Shown one piece after another: positions 8,669 to 33,876 of a stretch of DNA of 60,992 nt (position 1 is the first letter of the stretch; the number at the start of each line of letters is the position of its first letter). This DNA is from Clostridiaceae bacterium (GTDB taxonomy: Bacteria; Bacillota; Clostridia; SK-Y3), in the NCBI GenBank assembly GCA_012735465.1, contig JAAYHJ010000074.1:1-60992 (forward strand). The letters run 5' to 3'. The position numbers and the translations under genes are program-made. Below the pieces are notes generated by a model. That model worked only from the letters and a program-made list of their open reading frames with translations. It was not told the DNA's origin and searched no databases.

Positions 8669-10765
8669 ATGACAGAAAAGACTACTAATCACAGACTTAA
8701 TGATGAAAATTTGATAGATATGTTTCCATGTGGCCTCTATGTGGTAAGAGACTCTGTAATAATTGATTGTAATAGTACAACGGTAAAGATGCTTGGTTAT
8801 TCGGGCAAAGAAGAAATCCTGGGACGTAAGCCCTACGAATTTTCACCTGAGAAACAACCGGATGGAAGTTCTTCGGTTGAGAAAGGTCAGGAAATTATCG
8901 AAAATGCGTTAAACAGTGATAGGGAAACGGTTTTCGAATGGATGCATAAGAGAAAGAACGGGGATGTTTTTACTGCTTACGTTGTTATTTATAATAAAAA
9001 TGAAAACCTGTATGCAGTGATGATGGATATTGACGAGATAAAACAGCTAAAGGGAGAAAAGGATATATCAAAAGAAAAGGCTTGTGAAGAACAATTAATA
9101 TTATTCAAAAAAATACTGGAAAACAATTCTGAAGGCATAGTAATTACCGATATTGATGGGAATATAGAGTGGATAAATGCTGCCTTTGAAAAAATAACGG
9201 GGTATTCGCTATTGGAAGTAAAGGGCCTTAATATGAGTATTCTAAAATCAGGAATTCAGGAGCAAACCTTTTACTCTAATATGTGGAACCAATTGATAAA
9301 CAAAGGAACATGGAGCGGCGTGGTGTGGAATAAAACCAAGAAAGGTGAAATCTATTCCGAGTGGCTCAAGATAAGCAGCATCAAAGACGATTTGAATAAA
9401 ATTACCCATTATGTAGGAGTTTTCAAGGACCTTACTGAGAAGAAAAAAATTGACCAGCAGGTGGCGGAACTGAAACAAAAAGATGCTTTGACCGGGCTGT
9501 ATAACAGGGACTATTTTATTAAACTTGTGGATAATCATATAAAAAAATGTAAAGATGATGAACAGTTTTCAATTGTTTTTATAGATATTGCAGGACTTAA
9601 AGAAGTAAACAATTCCATAGGCCATCATATAGGAGATAGATTGCTGATTGAACTGTCCAAAAGGTTACGTCTTTTGATAAACGATTATTATGTATTATCA
9701 AGATATAGCGGAGATGAATTTGCTATTCTTTGTAAAGAAAAAAGAGATATAAAAACTGTAGCGGAAATGATTTTGGCAAGTATTAAACGGCCTTTTATGA
9801 TAGAAAATACTGTATTAAATGTGTCGGCAAATATTGGGATTAGCAGGTTTCCTAATGACGGTAAAAATGCGGAAGCCTTGATCAGGCATGCAGAGACGGC
9901 TATGTATAAATCGAAAGGACAGCTGGAAGGGAAAATATTCTTTTATTCCAAAGAGATGTCTGAAGAAATCGAGGATAGATTTTACATAGTAAACCTTTTA
10001 ACAAGAGCAATAGCAAATGAAGAACTAAGTGTTTATTACCAACCAATATTTAATATTGAAAATCCTGCAAATATTGTGGCTATAGAGGCGCTGTTGCGTT
10101 GGAAAAACCCTATATTGGGAAATGTGGCACCAGATAAATTTATCCCTCTGGCGGAAAAAACGGGATATATTATAAATATCGGGGAATGGGTGCTGGAGCA
10201 GGTGTGCAAACAAATTAAATCATGGAAACAGGCAGGGTATCGTGTTTTACCTGTGGCAGTTAATGTTTCTGTAAAGCAGTTGGAGCAGCAAGGGTTTTCA
10301 AAAAGGGTAATAGGAATTGTAAAAGAATATAATCTTAAGCCGGATAACATAGAGTTGGAAATAACGGAAAGCATATCTTCGGGAAACTTGACAACCATTG
10401 TTAAAAACCTGAAAGAACTTAAAAAATACGGTTTTAAAATTTCCATGGACGATTTTGGAACAGGTTTTTCTTCCCTTGGACAGATAGACCGATTTGAGCT
10501 GGATAAACTTAAAATAGATAAGATTTTCATAGAGGATTTATTAAATACTTCAAAGAAGCAGAACCTGGTAAGAACAATTATTGCAATGGCCAGCAGCCTG
10601 AATTTAACCGTAGTGGCGGAAGGAATAGAATCCAATGAGCAGTTATTATATCTTAAGGAATTTGGGTGCCATCTGGGACAGGGATATTTATTGAGCAGGC
10701 CTTTGCCGGCAGGGGAAATAGAAGTTTTACTTGGTGAGTGTAACACAAAAAGGGGACGGTTTTAG
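8669..10765 (+). CDS. PAS-PAS-GGDEF-EAL cyclic-di-GMP signalling protein, 698 aa
   Basis: Cytoplasmic sensor that likely controls c-di-GMP. Order: PAS (about 10-130), PAS with PAC (~145-265), GGDEF (~275-430), EAL (~440-690); no membrane helix. The GGDEF site reads SGDEF and there is no RxxD inhibitory site before it, so cyclase activity may be weak. The EAL domain keeps its usual catalytic set: EALLRW, NVSVKQL, ELEITES, MDDFGTG, KIDKIFI, VAEGIES and GQGYLLSRPL, so phosphodiesterase activity is likely. ATG 8669 is chosen because AGGAGG stands eight bases before it; the in-frame TTG at 8639 has no SD. It converges with the lipoprotein gene at 10762 and overlaps it by four bases in a shared terminator. 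Confidence 0.93.
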   Translation: MTEKTTNHRLNDENLIDMFPCGLYVVRDSVIIDCNSTTVKMLGYSGKEEILGRKPYEFSPEKQPDGSSSVEKGQEIIENALNSDRETVFEWMHKRKNGDVFTAYVVIYNKNENLYAVMMDIDEIKQLKGEKDISKEKACEEQLILFKKILENNSEGIVITDIDGNIEWINAAFEKITGYSLLEVKGLNMSILKSGIQEQTFYSNMWNQLINKGTWSGVVWNKTKKGEIYSEWLKISSIKDDLNKITHYVGVFKDLTEKKKIDQQVAELKQKDALTGLYNRDYFIKLVDNHIKKCKDDEQFSIVFIDIAGLKEVNNSIGHHIGDRLLIELSKRLRLLINDYYVLSRYSGDEFAILCKEKRDIKTVAEMILASIKRPFMIENTVLNVSANIGISRFPNDGKNAEALIRHAETAMYKSKGQLEGKIFFYSKEMSEEIEDRFYIVNLLTRAIANEELSVYYQPIFNIENPANIVAIEALLRWKNPILGNVAPDKFIPLAEKTGYIINIGEWVLEQVCKQIKSWKQAGYRVLPVAVNVSVKQLEQQGFSKRVIGIVKEYNLKPDNIELEITESISSGNLTTIVKNLKELKKYGFKISMDDFGTGFSSLGQIDRFELDKLKIDKIFIEDLLNTSKKQNLVRTIIAMASSLNLTVVAEGIESNEQLLYLKEFGCHLGQGYLLSRPLPAGEIEVLLGECNTKRGRF

Positions 10766-10781
10766 TTCAAATCGTCCCCTT
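10750..10781. terminator. Bidirectional terminator containing both stop codons
   Basis: AAGGGGACGGTTT (10750-10762) pairs with AAATCGTCCCCTT (10769-10781), a 13-bp stem with one G-U pair and a 6-nt loop. A U-rich tail follows on each strand. The TAG of the c-di-GMP gene is in the loop and the stop of the opposite gene overlaps it. The GGGGACGG core resembles the ends of the RAYT element near 32-33 kb. Confidence 0.85.
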
Positions 10782-12285
10782 GTTTTATATGGTTTTCCAA
10801 AGTTCTTTTCCAATTTTCTACATATTGACCTGTTGCCCATTCTACCATGATTACAACTTCACCTTCCTTTAAAGGAATCCTTTCTAAAGGTTCTTGTTGA
10901 AGATAATAACCATTTATTGCGAACACCATTATTTCTTCCTTTGTTATTACCAAAGCAATATCTTTGTTCGGAGATGTATAAAGATCAACAGCAGCAGGTA
11001 CCCTGTCCTTTACAGTTGTCCATGGAATACAGAGGTTATCATAGAAAACCAGTTCCCGGGGCGGAATAAGGTTAATGTTGTAATCGGAGATTCTTAATTG
11101 CCCGTCTTCAAAAAAGCTAACACGACCTTTTAACAGCCAGTGACCAAGCCTTCTTTCAAGGCCGTAATTTTCACTGTATTGGCTAAGACGATATTTGATT
11201 TTTTCACTCCTTTGATCCAGCACCTTTTGGATACCGGTTTTTATTGCCTCCAGGCCCGCATCTCCTAATAAGTCCGATATATTTACCCTTCTGATATTGG
11301 GGAGGCTGTCAATGACCAGTACGTGCAGCCCCTGACTTTGCAAGAATCTGTTTCCTTCTGAGGTTACATAGGTTTTTTCTTCAATGGAAACGTAATCGTT
11401 GCTGATAAAATTTATTTTTCTGTAAATCTCCTCTTTTCTTTCATAGGGATGGAACAGTTCAAAATTTTCCTTTTTAATGGGATGCATGTCTTTACTTAGA
11501 ATATTGTAAGCCACCAATAAGTCTTCTGTTCTATTGCCTTCGCTTATCCTATTAACCTCCATTTTCCAGAAACCTTTTCTTCTTGGGAAAAAGATGCCTT
11601 CCGTCTCTAAAAGAGGCTCCAGGTTTTTATTTTCTGCAGAAATCCAAAGGGTCCTATAGGAGTGGGTTTCTGTATCCGTGTCATTTTCTTTAAGGGTTTG
11701 GCGAAGGCCTATAAGGACTCCGCTACGTTGTAAATCAGTTTGGGGCTGATTCTCTATCTTGCTTTTTAGTATATTTTTTTCCAATAACTGTTTTATGGAT
11801 GCTTCATCAACCTCGGGAGAAATCTTCTTCAAAACAAAACTGTCATTGTAGATTTTTAATACCAGTTTATCCTCCTGTTCTTTTAAAATCTCGCAGAAAA
11901 AAAGTTCATTGTCTGTAACCGAAATTACTTCCGTTTCCTTTACAGGAAAAGAGTATCCTTCAGGAAAAGCGTCATAATGATATAGGATATATTCCTCCGT
12001 ATTTACCCGCCTTACCTGGTAACTAACATCTTTAATAAAATAATCGGCTATCATTGCATATTCCTTGGTAAAAAAAGCGGTTTTGCCCAGCCATTGTCGG
12101 AGGCTGTCTTCGGTAGAAGTTGACTGATTCAATACATCGGTAATTTCCCATGTCCCGCTTATAGGAATATTAAAACTTTCAGGAGGTATAATCTGTAATC
12201 CCAGCTCATTGGATGTATTCACACAACCGGTTGCAAGCAATAAAAACAGTAATAAAATAAAGCTCAGTTTAATTACAGGCTTCAT
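10762..12285 (-). CDS. Lipoprotein partner of the adjacent two-component system, 507 aa
   Basis: The N terminus, MKPVIKLSFILLLFLLLATGC, is a lipoprotein signal with lipobox A-T-G-C, so the mature protein is anchored outside the membrane. I do not recognise the rest. Three sections begin with similar G-x-W strands (GTWEITDVL near residue 44, GFWKMEVNR near 237, GHWLLKGRVSFFEDGQLRIS near 380), which suggests repeated beta-rich domains. The start ATG overlaps the kinase stop as ATGA, so translation is coupled to the histidine kinase. By position it could be an accessory sensor or inhibitor, as YycH/YycI are for WalK, but there is no visible similarity to those. Confidence 0.75.
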   Translation of the reverse strand: MKPVIKLSFILLLFLLLATGCVNTSNELGLQIIPPESFNIPISGTWEITDVLNQSTSTEDSLRQWLGKTAFFTKEYAMIADYFIKDVSYQVRRVNTEEYILYHYDAFPEGYSFPVKETEVISVTDNELFFCEILKEQEDKLVLKIYNDSFVLKKISPEVDEASIKQLLEKNILKSKIENQPQTDLQRSGVLIGLRQTLKENDTDTETHSYRTLWISAENKNLEPLLETEGIFFPRRKGFWKMEVNRISEGNRTEDLLVAYNILSKDMHPIKKENFELFHPYERKEEIYRKINFISNDYVSIEEKTYVTSEGNRFLQSQGLHVLVIDSLPNIRRVNISDLLGDAGLEAIKTGIQKVLDQRSEKIKYRLSQYSENYGLERRLGHWLLKGRVSFFEDGQLRISDYNINLIPPRELVFYDNLCIPWTTVKDRVPAAVDLYTSPNKDIALVITKEEIMVFAINGYYLQQEPLERIPLKEGEVVIMVEWATGQYVENWKRTLENHIKQGDDLN

Positions 12286-30339: not shown

Positions 30340-30397
30340 CACACCGACGGATAGGGAAAAATAAGACATAATTAAATTTTTATTTGGAGGTGTGCTG

Positions 30398-32053
30398 TTG
30401 ATTAGTCCTAATCGGCTGCGGTTTTTAGTAATTGCCATTATTTTTTTGTTTTTATGCCTCCTTGGACGGTTTTATTACCTTCAGGTTGTCGAGGCGGATA
30501 CATTGACCCGCCAGGTTACCCGCCAGCGGGCGCTGGATACCACATTAAAATATACCCGTGGATATATATATGATAGAAATATGATTCCCTTTACCGATAG
30601 AGAAGACAGGTACTATATCATCGTCATTCCAGGCCTTATCAAAGACGGGGAAAAAGTGATCGGTGGATTATCCGGTTTTACCGGCTATAGCAGGGAAGAA
30701 ATTGAAGAAACCTTTCGGGAACAAGTACCGGTTACATATATTGTTGAAAACTATTTGGAACAGGAAATCAGGGAAGTACTGGATGACCCTTCCATTAAAA
30801 TAATCCCGTTAAGCAAACGGTATGGCAAAGAATCCCTGGCCAGGCATATCATTGGTTATGTTAATGAGGCTGATCAAACGGGTTTTTCGGGAATTGAAAA
30901 AGCTTTTGATTCCTATCTTAATGAGCGGAAACCGCAGAGCATAGGCATGGTGGGGGATGCGATAAAACGGTCCATACCCGGCCTGGGATACAGGGTGATA
31001 AATTGTTTTAGCAATAATGAAGGTGAAGCGGTACGCCTTACGTTGGATTATCACATACAAAGCATAGTGGAAAAGGTTATGGATAAACGGATGGGGCAGG
31101 GGGCAGTTATTGTTACCGATGTAAAAAGCGGGGACATTTTAGCCCTTGCCAGCAGGCCCAATTATGACCAGGAACACGTGGAGCAATATATTGACAGTGA
31201 CGGAAGCGAATTGGTTAATAGGGTGTTTTCGCCTTATGATGCGGGCTCCATATTTAAAATAGTTGTGGCTGCTGCCGCATTGGAAAAAAACACGGTCAGC
31301 CTGGATACTCCTTTTACATGCACCGGATATATTGATGTAGACGATATGGCATTTATGTGCCATAAATCGGACGGCCATGGGGAATTAAGCTTCATGGAAG
31401 GGTTTGCTAATTCCTGCAACCCGGTTTTTATTGATACGGGCCTGAAGGTGGGGTACAAATCCATTATTGAGATGGCCAAAAGATTTGGTTTTGGCAGTTC
31501 CCTGTACCTTTTTGACGGACTTATACAGGAAAAAGGGAATATACCCGATAAAAAATACGTTTCTGCCAGGGAAACAGCTAATATTTCCATTGGCCAGGGA
31601 GAAATCCTTGTAACCCCTATCCAGGTAGCGGATATGGTTACTACCATTGCAAACAATGGTGTACGTAAGAAACTCAACCTTGTTGACGCCATTGTGATGG
31701 ATGACGGAAGTATTGTAAAGGATATGCGGATTAAAGGGGAAACACGTATTATTAGCGCGGAAGTTGCAAAAAAAATTCAGAGGATGATGGAAGAAGTAAC
31801 CTTATCAGGAACAGGTGCAAATGTGCGCATGGAACATTATGGAGGGGTTGCAGGCAAGACCGGCAGTGCGGAAACGGGCTGGGTCATGGAAAACGGCAGT
31901 ACAAAAGTACATGCCTGGTTTGCCGGATATTTCCCCATAAAAGATCCCAAATATGCCATGGTTGTGTTTGTGGAAAACGGCAGGCAGGGCGGCAGCGCCG
32001 CAGCTCCGGTTTTTAGGGATATTGCCGAAGAGATTATGAAGTTAAATCGATAA
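30398..32053 (+). CDS. Class B penicillin-binding protein (peptidoglycan transpeptidase), 551 aa
   Basis: One N-terminal membrane helix (about 8-26), a dimerisation domain and a transpeptidase domain with all three active-site motifs: SxxK in DAGSIFKIVVA (Ser near 284), SxN in ANSCNP (~338) and KTG in AGKTGSAETG (~485). Length fits FtsI/SpoVD/PBP2-like enzymes but no PASTA domain is present. TTG 30398 is preferred over GTG 30392 because the SD GGAGG (30386-30390) is only one base from the GTG and seven from the TTG. It follows the tRNA-modification genes by about 100 bp; whether it acts in division, elongation or sporulation is not decidable. Confidence 0.92.
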   Translation: MISPNRLRFLVIAIIFLFLCLLGRFYYLQVVEADTLTRQVTRQRALDTTLKYTRGYIYDRNMIPFTDREDRYYIIVIPGLIKDGEKVIGGLSGFTGYSREEIEETFREQVPVTYIVENYLEQEIREVLDDPSIKIIPLSKRYGKESLARHIIGYVNEADQTGFSGIEKAFDSYLNERKPQSIGMVGDAIKRSIPGLGYRVINCFSNNEGEAVRLTLDYHIQSIVEKVMDKRMGQGAVIVTDVKSGDILALASRPNYDQEHVEQYIDSDGSELVNRVFSPYDAGSIFKIVVAAAALEKNTVSLDTPFTCTGYIDVDDMAFMCHKSDGHGELSFMEGFANSCNPVFIDTGLKVGYKSIIEMAKRFGFGSSLYLFDGLIQEKGNIPDKKYVSARETANISIGQGEILVTPIQVADMVTTIANNGVRKKLNLVDAIVMDDGSIVKDMRIKGETRIISAEVAKKIQRMMEEVTLSGTGANVRMEHYGGVAGKTGSAETGWVMENGSTKVHAWFAGYFPIKDPKYAMVVFVENGRQGGSAAAPVFRDIAEEIMKLNR

Positions 32054-32063
32054 ATACGATGCT

Positions 32064-32083
32064 GGGGACGGGGCAATAATTGT
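32064..32083 (+). repeat. Left 20-bp terminal repeat of the RAYT element
   Basis: Exact reverse complement of bases 32935-32954, 11 bases after the PBP stop codon. Confidence 0.95.
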
Positions 32084-32140
32084 GCAAAACATTGAAATAA
32101 ATTATAATGATTGGTATAATTCTGTATGAGGTGGTTGAAA

Positions 32141-32929
32141 GTGGCAAGATTAGCGAGAAAAATAAGCCAGACAGGATTATACCATATTATTTTTAGAGGC
32201 ATATGCCGGCAAAATATTTTTGAGGATATGAATGATTATGAAAAGATGCTTGAAGTGATTAAGCAGGTAAAAAGAGAATTACAATACGATATTTATGCAT
32301 ATTGTCTTATGACAAACCATGCCCATTTATTTATAAAGGAGAAGAATGCTGGAGATATAATAAAAATCATGTCAAAGATATTGTCACAGTATGCAGGTTG
32401 GTTTAATAGAAAGTATTTAAGAAGCGGTGCTTTATTTGGTGACAGATATAAAAGTGAAGCAATTGAAGATTATAGATATTTGTTTTCTTTAGTAAGATAC
32501 ATACACCAGAATCCACTTAGGGCAGGAATAGTAAGTAAATTAGATGACTATAAGTGGAGTAGTTATAATGATTATATAAAGCCAAAAGAGAATTCGTTAA
32601 CGGATACAGGATTTATATTAAATCAATTTTCTGATGACAAAGACAAAGCAGTTGAATTATTTATAGAGTTTAACAATGAGATTGAGGATAATGATTTTAC
32701 AATTGCAGACGGAAGAAGAAAGAACGAAGGTAGCATAAAAAGAATAATAATGAGTTTAATAGATGGTGAGCAGCCACATACAATAAAAAGCATGCCGAAA
32801 GAAAAAAGGGATCTAATTATATACAAGTTGTATAAAGATGAAGGATTATCGAAAAGTGTAATTGAAAGAGCTACCGGAATATCAAGGGGAACGATTATAA
32901 AAATCATAAAGCAGTTTGAAATGCAATGA
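32141..32929 (+). CDS. REP-associated tyrosine transposase (Y1_Tnp, IS200-like), 262 aa
   Basis: HUH-type single-strand transposase. N-terminal ARLARKISQTGLYHIIFRGICRQNIF is typical of RAYTs; the HUH metal motif is in YCLMTNHAHLFIKE and the catalytic tyrosine is likely in LVRYIHQNPLRAGIV, followed by KWSSYNDY. After the Y1 domain (about 1-150) comes a helical tail ending in GLSKSVIERATGISRGTIIKIIKQ, a helix-turn-helix. GTG 32141 is chosen over ATG 32126 because GAGGTGG stands just before it. The frame is intact, so the protein may be active. Confidence 0.9.
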   Translation: MARLARKISQTGLYHIIFRGICRQNIFEDMNDYEKMLEVIKQVKRELQYDIYAYCLMTNHAHLFIKEKNAGDIIKIMSKILSQYAGWFNRKYLRSGALFGDRYKSEAIEDYRYLFSLVRYIHQNPLRAGIVSKLDDYKWSSYNDYIKPKENSLTDTGFILNQFSDDKDKAVELFIEFNNEIEDNDFTIADGRRKNEGSIKRIIMSLIDGEQPHTIKSMPKEKRDLIIYKLYKDEGLSKSVIERATGISRGTIIKIIKQFEMQ

Positions 32930-32934
32930 ATTGT

Positions 32935-32954
32935 ACAATAATTGCCCCGTCCCC
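32935..32954 (-). repeat. Right 20-bp terminal repeat of the RAYT element
   Basis: ACAATAATTGCCCCGTCCCC, exact reverse complement of the left end. It begins five bases after the transposase stop. Confidence 0.95.
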
Positions 32955-33014: not shown

Positions 33015-33042
33015 GTAGTATCGCATGAAAGAAGGATTAGGA

Positions 33043-33876
33043 ATGGACAAAATATTAAATGAAGTGAAGAATGCTAAAAGAATCATTGTAAAAGTAGGGA
33101 CATCAACTCTGACCCATAGCAATGGAAAGCTTAACTTAAAGCGGATAGAATGTCTTGTAAGGGTGCTGTCCGACTTGAAAAATGAAGGCAAGGAAGTAAT
33201 TTTGGTAACATCCGGTGCTATTGGTGTCGGAGTTGGTAAACTGGGGCTTAGCGAAAGGCCCAGGACGACACGGGAGAAGCAGGCTATTGCGGCAGTAGGA
33301 CAATGTGAACTTATGTTTCTTTACGACAAGCTGTTTTCCGAATACGGGCACATAGTTGCCCAGATATTGCTGACGAAGGATGTGGTGGAAGAAGAGCACC
33401 GCAAACAAAATGCTATAAATACGTTTAATACGCTTCTGGAGTTTAATATTATACCTATTGTTAATGAAAATGATACCGTTGCTGTGGAAGAGATTGAATT
33501 TGGTGATAACGATACTTTATCGGCAGTGGTAGGGAAACTGGTAAATGCCGATTTGCTGATCATTCTTTCGGATATTGATGCACTGTATGATGCAGACCCA
33601 AGGGTAAATAAAAATGCAAAGCCTATTCCCGTTGTTACTGAAATTACTGATGAAATCAGGCTGCTGGCAGGTGGAGCCGGAAGTAACCGCGGAGTTGGCG
33701 GTATGATAACCAAGATTTCTGCAGCGGAAATTGCATGTGAATCAGGGGTTAATATGATCATTGCCAGCGGGGAAGACCCAAGAATTTTATACGATATTTT
33801 TGAAGGGAAGCAGGTAGGGACCTTGTTCTTGAAAAAGGGGCAGCACATTGTCCGGTCATTGGCAGAGATAAGTTAA
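33043..33876 (+). CDS. proB: Glutamate 5-kinase lacking the PUA domain, 277 aa
   Basis: First step of proline synthesis: ATP-dependent phosphorylation of glutamate. Amino-acid kinase fold with IIVKVGTSTL, VTSGAIGVGVGKLGL, PIVNENDTVAVEE, LLIILSDIDALYDADP, and GGMITKISAAEIA. Enzymes of about 365 residues carry a C-terminal PUA domain; here the protein stops straight after the kinase domain. ATG 33043 is favoured over ATG 33025 because GAAGGA is placed between them. It is followed 20 bases later by proA. Confidence 0.94.
   Translation: MDKILNEVKNAKRIIVKVGTSTLTHSNGKLNLKRIECLVRVLSDLKNEGKEVILVTSGAIGVGVGKLGLSERPRTTREKQAIAAVGQCELMFLYDKLFSEYGHIVAQILLTKDVVEEEHRKQNAINTFNTLLEFNIIPIVNENDTVAVEEIEFGDNDTLSAVVGKLVNADLLIILSDIDALYDADPRVNKNAKPIPVVTEITDEIRLLAGGAGSNRGVGGMITKISAAEIACESGVNMIIASGEDPRILYDIFEGKQVGTLFLKKGQHIVRSLAEIS

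Follow-up and report, generated by a model that had tools for sequence, protein, structure and literature searches.

A probable TIRYT-type HUH element between a penicillin-binding protein gene and proB of a Clostridiaceae bacterium, and its enzyme-less miniature copies

The TIRYT/TIRtron class of elements was described by Di Nocera et al. 2013 (PMC3733652). The motif GGGGWSAS is found in the TIRYT repeats of some members (of the majority according to PMC6006769), and some of the terminal inverted repeats (TIRs) are partly or wholly self-complementary (PMC3733652). For the genes of TnpA-Y1 subclass 2.1, low copy number and low identity were given (1.9 copies, 49%; PMC6006769), and no REP-like structure or hairpins were found beside them (Quentin et al. 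2018, PMC6006769). Furthermore, class 2 genes lie close to housekeeping genes (PMC8266576).

The window, i.e., the whole stretch of 60,992 bp analysed here, contains an 891-bp unit (32064-32954) in which an intact Y1 HUH gene stands between two inverted arms. The features of the locus are as follows.

30392 to 32053, + strand: flanking host gene, penicillin-binding protein (PBP), which adjoins proB in relatives without the element
32064 to 32083, + strand: left terminal inverted repeat, GGGGACGGGGCAATAATTGT
32064 to 32125, + strand: left non-coding end with the TIR and a promoter-like TTGAAA..TATAAT, retained in three miniature copies
32141 to 32929, + strand: gene of the RAYT-like Y1 HUH transposase, 262 aa when started at GTG (267 aa when started at ATG 32126)
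32315 to 32326, + strand: NHAH, the HUH metal-binding motif (H65 and H67, numbered from ATG 32126)
32498 to 32515, + strand: catalytic tyrosine motif YIHQNP (Y125); Y---NP is the class 2 TnpA-Y1 signature (PMC6006769)
32852 to 32923, + strand: C-terminal helix-turn-helix (HTH)
32929 to 32954, + strand: right non-coding end, retained in miniature copies
32935 to 32954, - strand: right terminal inverted repeat, reading inward GGGGACGGGGCAATTATTGT
33025 to 33876, + strand: flanking host gene, from its sequence features a putative proB (glutamate 5-kinase)

With a probability of roughly 0.7, we read this unit as an autonomous TIRYT ('TIRtron') element of the HUH/Y1 type that has inserted between the PBP gene and proB and that, like its miniature copies (minis), would be moved or copied as single strands by its enzyme. 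As in TIRYT/TIRtrons, a RAYT-like Y1 gene is framed by TIRs with a GGGG-type motif and without GTAG REPs, and the end-repeats occur also as dimers and clusters. The original prediction had regarded terminal inverted repeats as unusual for RAYTs, which overlooks this described class with its GGGGWSAS-type ends (PMC3733652). The ends differ slightly from the described motif, since those of the window (GGGGACGG) fit GGGGWSAS at 7/8 positions; relatives with GGGGACAG fit it exactly. Literature searches on the GGGGACGG motif and on hairpins of RAYTs in Firmicutes gave nothing relevant.

The predicted gene coordinates and layout, an intact gene with the arms in place on both sides, are borne out. 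However, the arms, called perfect 20-bp repeats in the prediction, agree at 19/20 positions with a sole mismatch at position 15, the outer 14 nt being exact; a weaker similarity extends to 42 nt (79%). The local alignment of the two flanks scored 42 (maximum 21 in 100 shuffles), the arms are the longest inverted repeat of the 61-kb window at the settings used, and no other gene lies between them. The longer 20-nt form of the ends was found in four of the 391 genomes of the class (G000, which is the window genome, G287, G179 and G023), and its reversed control in 0/391. The spacers of 57 bp (left) and 5 bp (right) given earlier hold with the start at GTG 32141, which we adopt because both the homologue N-termini (M-[SP]-R-x-x-R; VARLARK from this GTG in the window) and an AGGTGG ribosome-binding site just 5' of it support this start. 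Elsewhere in the window (10745-10786) there is a second, different GGGGAC inverted pair, ACAAAAAGGGGACGGTTTT ... CGTCCCCTTGTTTT, a small dimer of another end type that measures ~28 bp between its outer runs of G and C.

The window genome (2.32 Mb, 95 contigs) has one full copy of the element. Its outer 14-mer, GGGGACGGGGCAAT, has eight exact copies there (chance expectation ~0.02), which form four inverted pairs and never occur unpaired, so that the search for solo and paired ends proposed with the original prediction returned pairs throughout, three of them enzyme-less. Besides the window pair, these are three minis of 90 bp (contig C18), 94 bp (C45) and 85 bp (C90). They consist of the two non-coding ends of the element without the gene: the left parts are identical to the left 61-62 bp of the window element at 57/61, 59/63 and 49/58 positions, and the right 26 bp at 25/26 (C18) and 26/26 (C90). 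All three have one deletion point in common and share derived bases that differ from the window copy; the simplest reading of these sequences is a single enzyme-less founder, which was copied later. The minis imply copying without the gene. As a single strand, each can fold into one long hairpin (~-39 to -48 kcal/mol with RNA parameters), and no Rfam family was found in the three mini loci. They are preceded by ATTT, ATTT and GTTT before GGGG and followed in all three cases by ATTT after CCCC, which suggests, for three copies only and by analogy with IS200/IS605, that cleavage or targeting uses a short T-rich site. For the C18 mini, a search for an empty site at DNA level found no homologue in 60 relatives. 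At the same locus (L060, C18 1074-1590), the preceding host gene reads ~12 codons into the mini, which provides its stop codon.

Miniature derivatives of this kind, which go back to one founder and have cleanly lost the gene, distinguish the element from described TIRYT/TIRtrons. They resemble REPINs and their RAYTs (PMC3116915) in that inverted pairs of short ends spread enzyme-less and can fold as one long hairpin, but here the pairs number only three, there is no GTAG foot, and each mini retains ~60 bp of the autonomous left end, which is MITE-like. The earlier idea of a new REP pair moving with its own enzyme thus stands insofar as the repeats belong to the mobile unit of the gene and enzyme-less pairs exist. 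It fails on the REP itself: the GTAG tetranucleotide, the REP/REPIN foot, is absent from both 20-nt arms, and the element is not a new GTAG REP.

In G001, G002 and G003, which belong to the same family and to other genera, PBP adjoins proB without a transposase gene. Gene order therefore identifies the window gene as an insertion with respect to the family, and the contrary case of an old fixed gene does not apply at family level. The proposed comparison of empty sites, made with other genera, thus showed the absence of the gene at the level of gene order. The gap is plain intergenic DNA in G001, whereas in G002 (locus L107) it contains three tandem hairpins, TGCGACA-GGGGACGGTTCTCGCT-TGTCGCA, orthologous to the insertion place in the window, and in G003 (L110) a degenerate GGGGAC inverted pair. 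The spot has thus received related repeats independently.

Multiple copies of the whole element, a further difference from described TIRYT/TIRtrons, are present in a relative. G003, a single-contig genome of 5.5 Mb with a listed contamination of 11%, has seven copies of exactly 880 bp (GTATATGGGGACG ... CGTCCCTAAG) that are 96.8-100% identical, each <15 kb from another copy. Their flanks differ, the 260-aa frame is open in 7/7, and the encoded enzyme is 50% identical to that of the window. Recent movement of the whole element is shown for G003 and not for the window copy. For the latter, the predicted recent movement finds no support: there is no second full copy, the minis are about 6-16% divergent from it where their left parts align, and directly beside it stand GCT and CCT, without the TTT and ATTT seen beside all three minis. 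At five G003 loci (L041-L044, L046), tandem duplications of 10-18 bp at the junctions take in both the end of the element and the 4-6 bases next to it. Pairing between host flank and inner arm was considered as a target rule for the seven copies and looked by eye close to chance. In G179, two contigs break off 100 bp into elements with the same end type as the window element, as is expected when assembly fails at a repeated element. In G287, two loci (L101, L103) carry clusters of GGGGACGGGTCGTTTTTGTTGCG-type end repeats with no gene between them (spacing ~34 bp in L101); to judge from their sequence, the clusters are a REP-like amplification of this end type.

The window gene could also be a domesticated RAYT, i.e., a resident gene with relic ends that may shuffle short end-repeats in trans and no longer moves itself. 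The single full copy, the shared founder and later divergence of the minis, the dissimilar flanks of the window ends, and the low copy number (PMC6006769) and proximity to housekeeping genes (PMC8266576) of class 2 genes agree with it. Nevertheless, we regard it as unlikely, as the gene is absent from the PBP-proB place in G001-G003, the 50% identical enzyme of G003 has seven near-identical copies, and the frame and ends of the window element are intact.

In the wider family, 79 loci could be tested, namely the window plus 78 relatives that come mostly from Clostridia and Bacilli. In 61 of them, the window included, the terminal inverted repeats beat all 100 shuffles. Most relatives' ends are single hairpins with a conserved loop (GGGGACGGTTCT, GGGACGTTCT, GGGACAGG and others), whose stem arms vary between genomes yet stay complementary; such covarying hairpins in relatives are also a difference from described TIRYT/TIRtrons. 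The contiguous stem, averaged over 159 occurrences of the motif in 76 loci, was 5.28 nt long, compared with 3.27 nt when arms were swapped between loci (200 draws, of which the highest mean was 3.55; sd of the means 0.08). In 58 GGTTC-class ends, aligned in the one register that leaves a single spacer base, Watson-Crick pairing at each of pairs 2-7 was present in 36-50 of the 58, exceeding each of 500 shuffles, all four pair types were present at pairs 4-7, and the effect was gone when the register was moved one base either way; the rows are related, so these counts are not independent events. The loop class tracks the enzyme tree, with 15 changes compared with 32.4 on average after shuffling (0/200 as low).

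At the window's own ends, hairpin formation was at chance level, and in the 21 GGGGACGGGGC-type ends of its lineage the stems were at chance as well (3.86 own vs 3.88 swapped). The covariation result therefore applies to the wider family and must not be transferred to the window copy. L119, of the same end class as the window, still has a 7-bp stem. Tentatively, and with slightly more doubt than confidence, we suggest that GGGGAC-end TIRYTs may be true transposons in which the enzyme reads the sequence of a per-end hairpin loop (GGGGACGGTTCT type) that evolves along with it, the stem being read by shape and free to change, and that the window lineage may be a derived branch in which plain inverted repeats replaced the per-end hairpins.

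These data bear as well on the notion that an unrelated (DDE-type) transposon or MITE family is the source of the repeats, with the RAYT gene as passenger. Near-perfect inverted repeats with MITE-like minis do resemble DDE transposons, but in most of the 79 loci RAYT-like genes stand between GGGGAC-type ends, the end type follows the RAYT tree and no other gene lies between the ends, which makes a passenger gene most improbable.

The enzyme itself is RAYT-like. Y1_Tnp (Pfam) matched 66/66 aligned proteins (61.7 bits for the window protein), across which H65, H67, Y125, N129 and P130 are invariant. The AlphaFold model of the window protein (mean pLDDT 91.7) has its best solved fold match in 4ER8, a structure of the E. 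coli RAYT in complex with a REP hairpin (Z 18.4, 163 residues); next come the transposases of IS608 (Z 11.1) and ISDra2 (~Z 9-11). A helical C-terminal region (residues 201-266 in the model) ends in the HTH; HTH_23 was found in 17/66 members and weakly in the window protein (E 0.058). The nearest NCBIfam model is that of the REP-associated tyrosine transposase (NF047646, 73.8 bits, under the curated cut-off of 80, which is passed by the relatives L119 with 81.3 and L137 with 81.0), rather than IS200, whose equivalog model gave 24.5 bits. With NH-x-H, Y---NP, a core of ~112 aa and the C-terminal HTH, the protein resembles TnpA-Y1 subclass 2.1, from which the relatives studied here differ in having hairpins and seven copies at 97-100%. 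This RAYT-like enzyme of class 2 fits best among the TIRYT/TIRtron genes and would fall roughly in subclass 2.1. A second TIRYT-like gene of the window genome (contig C83, about 1600-2490) is 41% identical and has its own end type, GGGGACGGTTCT with the stem TGTCAA/TTGACA.

A classical IS200/IS605 insertion sequence, with which the Y1_Tnp match, the catalytic HUH/Y1 fold and the possible short T-rich flank of the minis would agree, is very improbable given the equivalog score far below the cut-off of 55, Y---NP instead of Y---Q, 262 aa with an HTH tail, a fold nearer to the 4ER8 RAYT, the inverted-repeat ends, the RAYT-type signature and the lack of tnpB.

Single-strand recognition, 5'-phosphotyrosine cleavage, joining and reinsertion near the replication fork make up the biochemistry of IS200/IS605 elements and RAYTs. 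By homology and fold, the window enzyme belongs to the class that cleaves single-stranded DNA. By analogy, it would bind the GGGGAC ends in single-stranded form, probably on the lagging-strand template; Tyr125 would nick at or near the ends via 5'-phosphotyrosine cleavage and then join them; movement or copying as single strands would take place in cis for the full element and in trans for the minis; and the joined strands would reinsert near the replication fork. The gene is co-directional with replication in the window (GC skew +0.163), in 49/64 loci and in all G003 copies; on contig C1 of G003, RAYT-like copies are all on the minus strand in 0.58-2.94 Mb and all on the plus strand in 3.6-4.83 Mb, and the GC skew flips near 3.3 Mb. 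Most Firmicutes genes are also co-directional with replication; the orientation is compatible with lagging-strand use, but as it is no stronger than this general gene bias, it was not counted as a sign of it.

The window element is an ordinary-sized but informative member of the TIRYT/TIRtrons, a kind already named and little studied, with MITE-like derivatives. RAYTs are usually described as domesticated and non-mobile, whereas relatives of this element show recent whole-element copies. If the loop is indeed read by sequence and the stem by shape, the plan of REPs, with the fixed GTAG outside the stem, would be reversed. The covariation data name the likely recognition site of these enzymes, and the minis of the window genome are a natural candidate for a trans-mobilised substrate. 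What HTH-tailed RAYT-like enzymes recognise and move is now a directly testable question.
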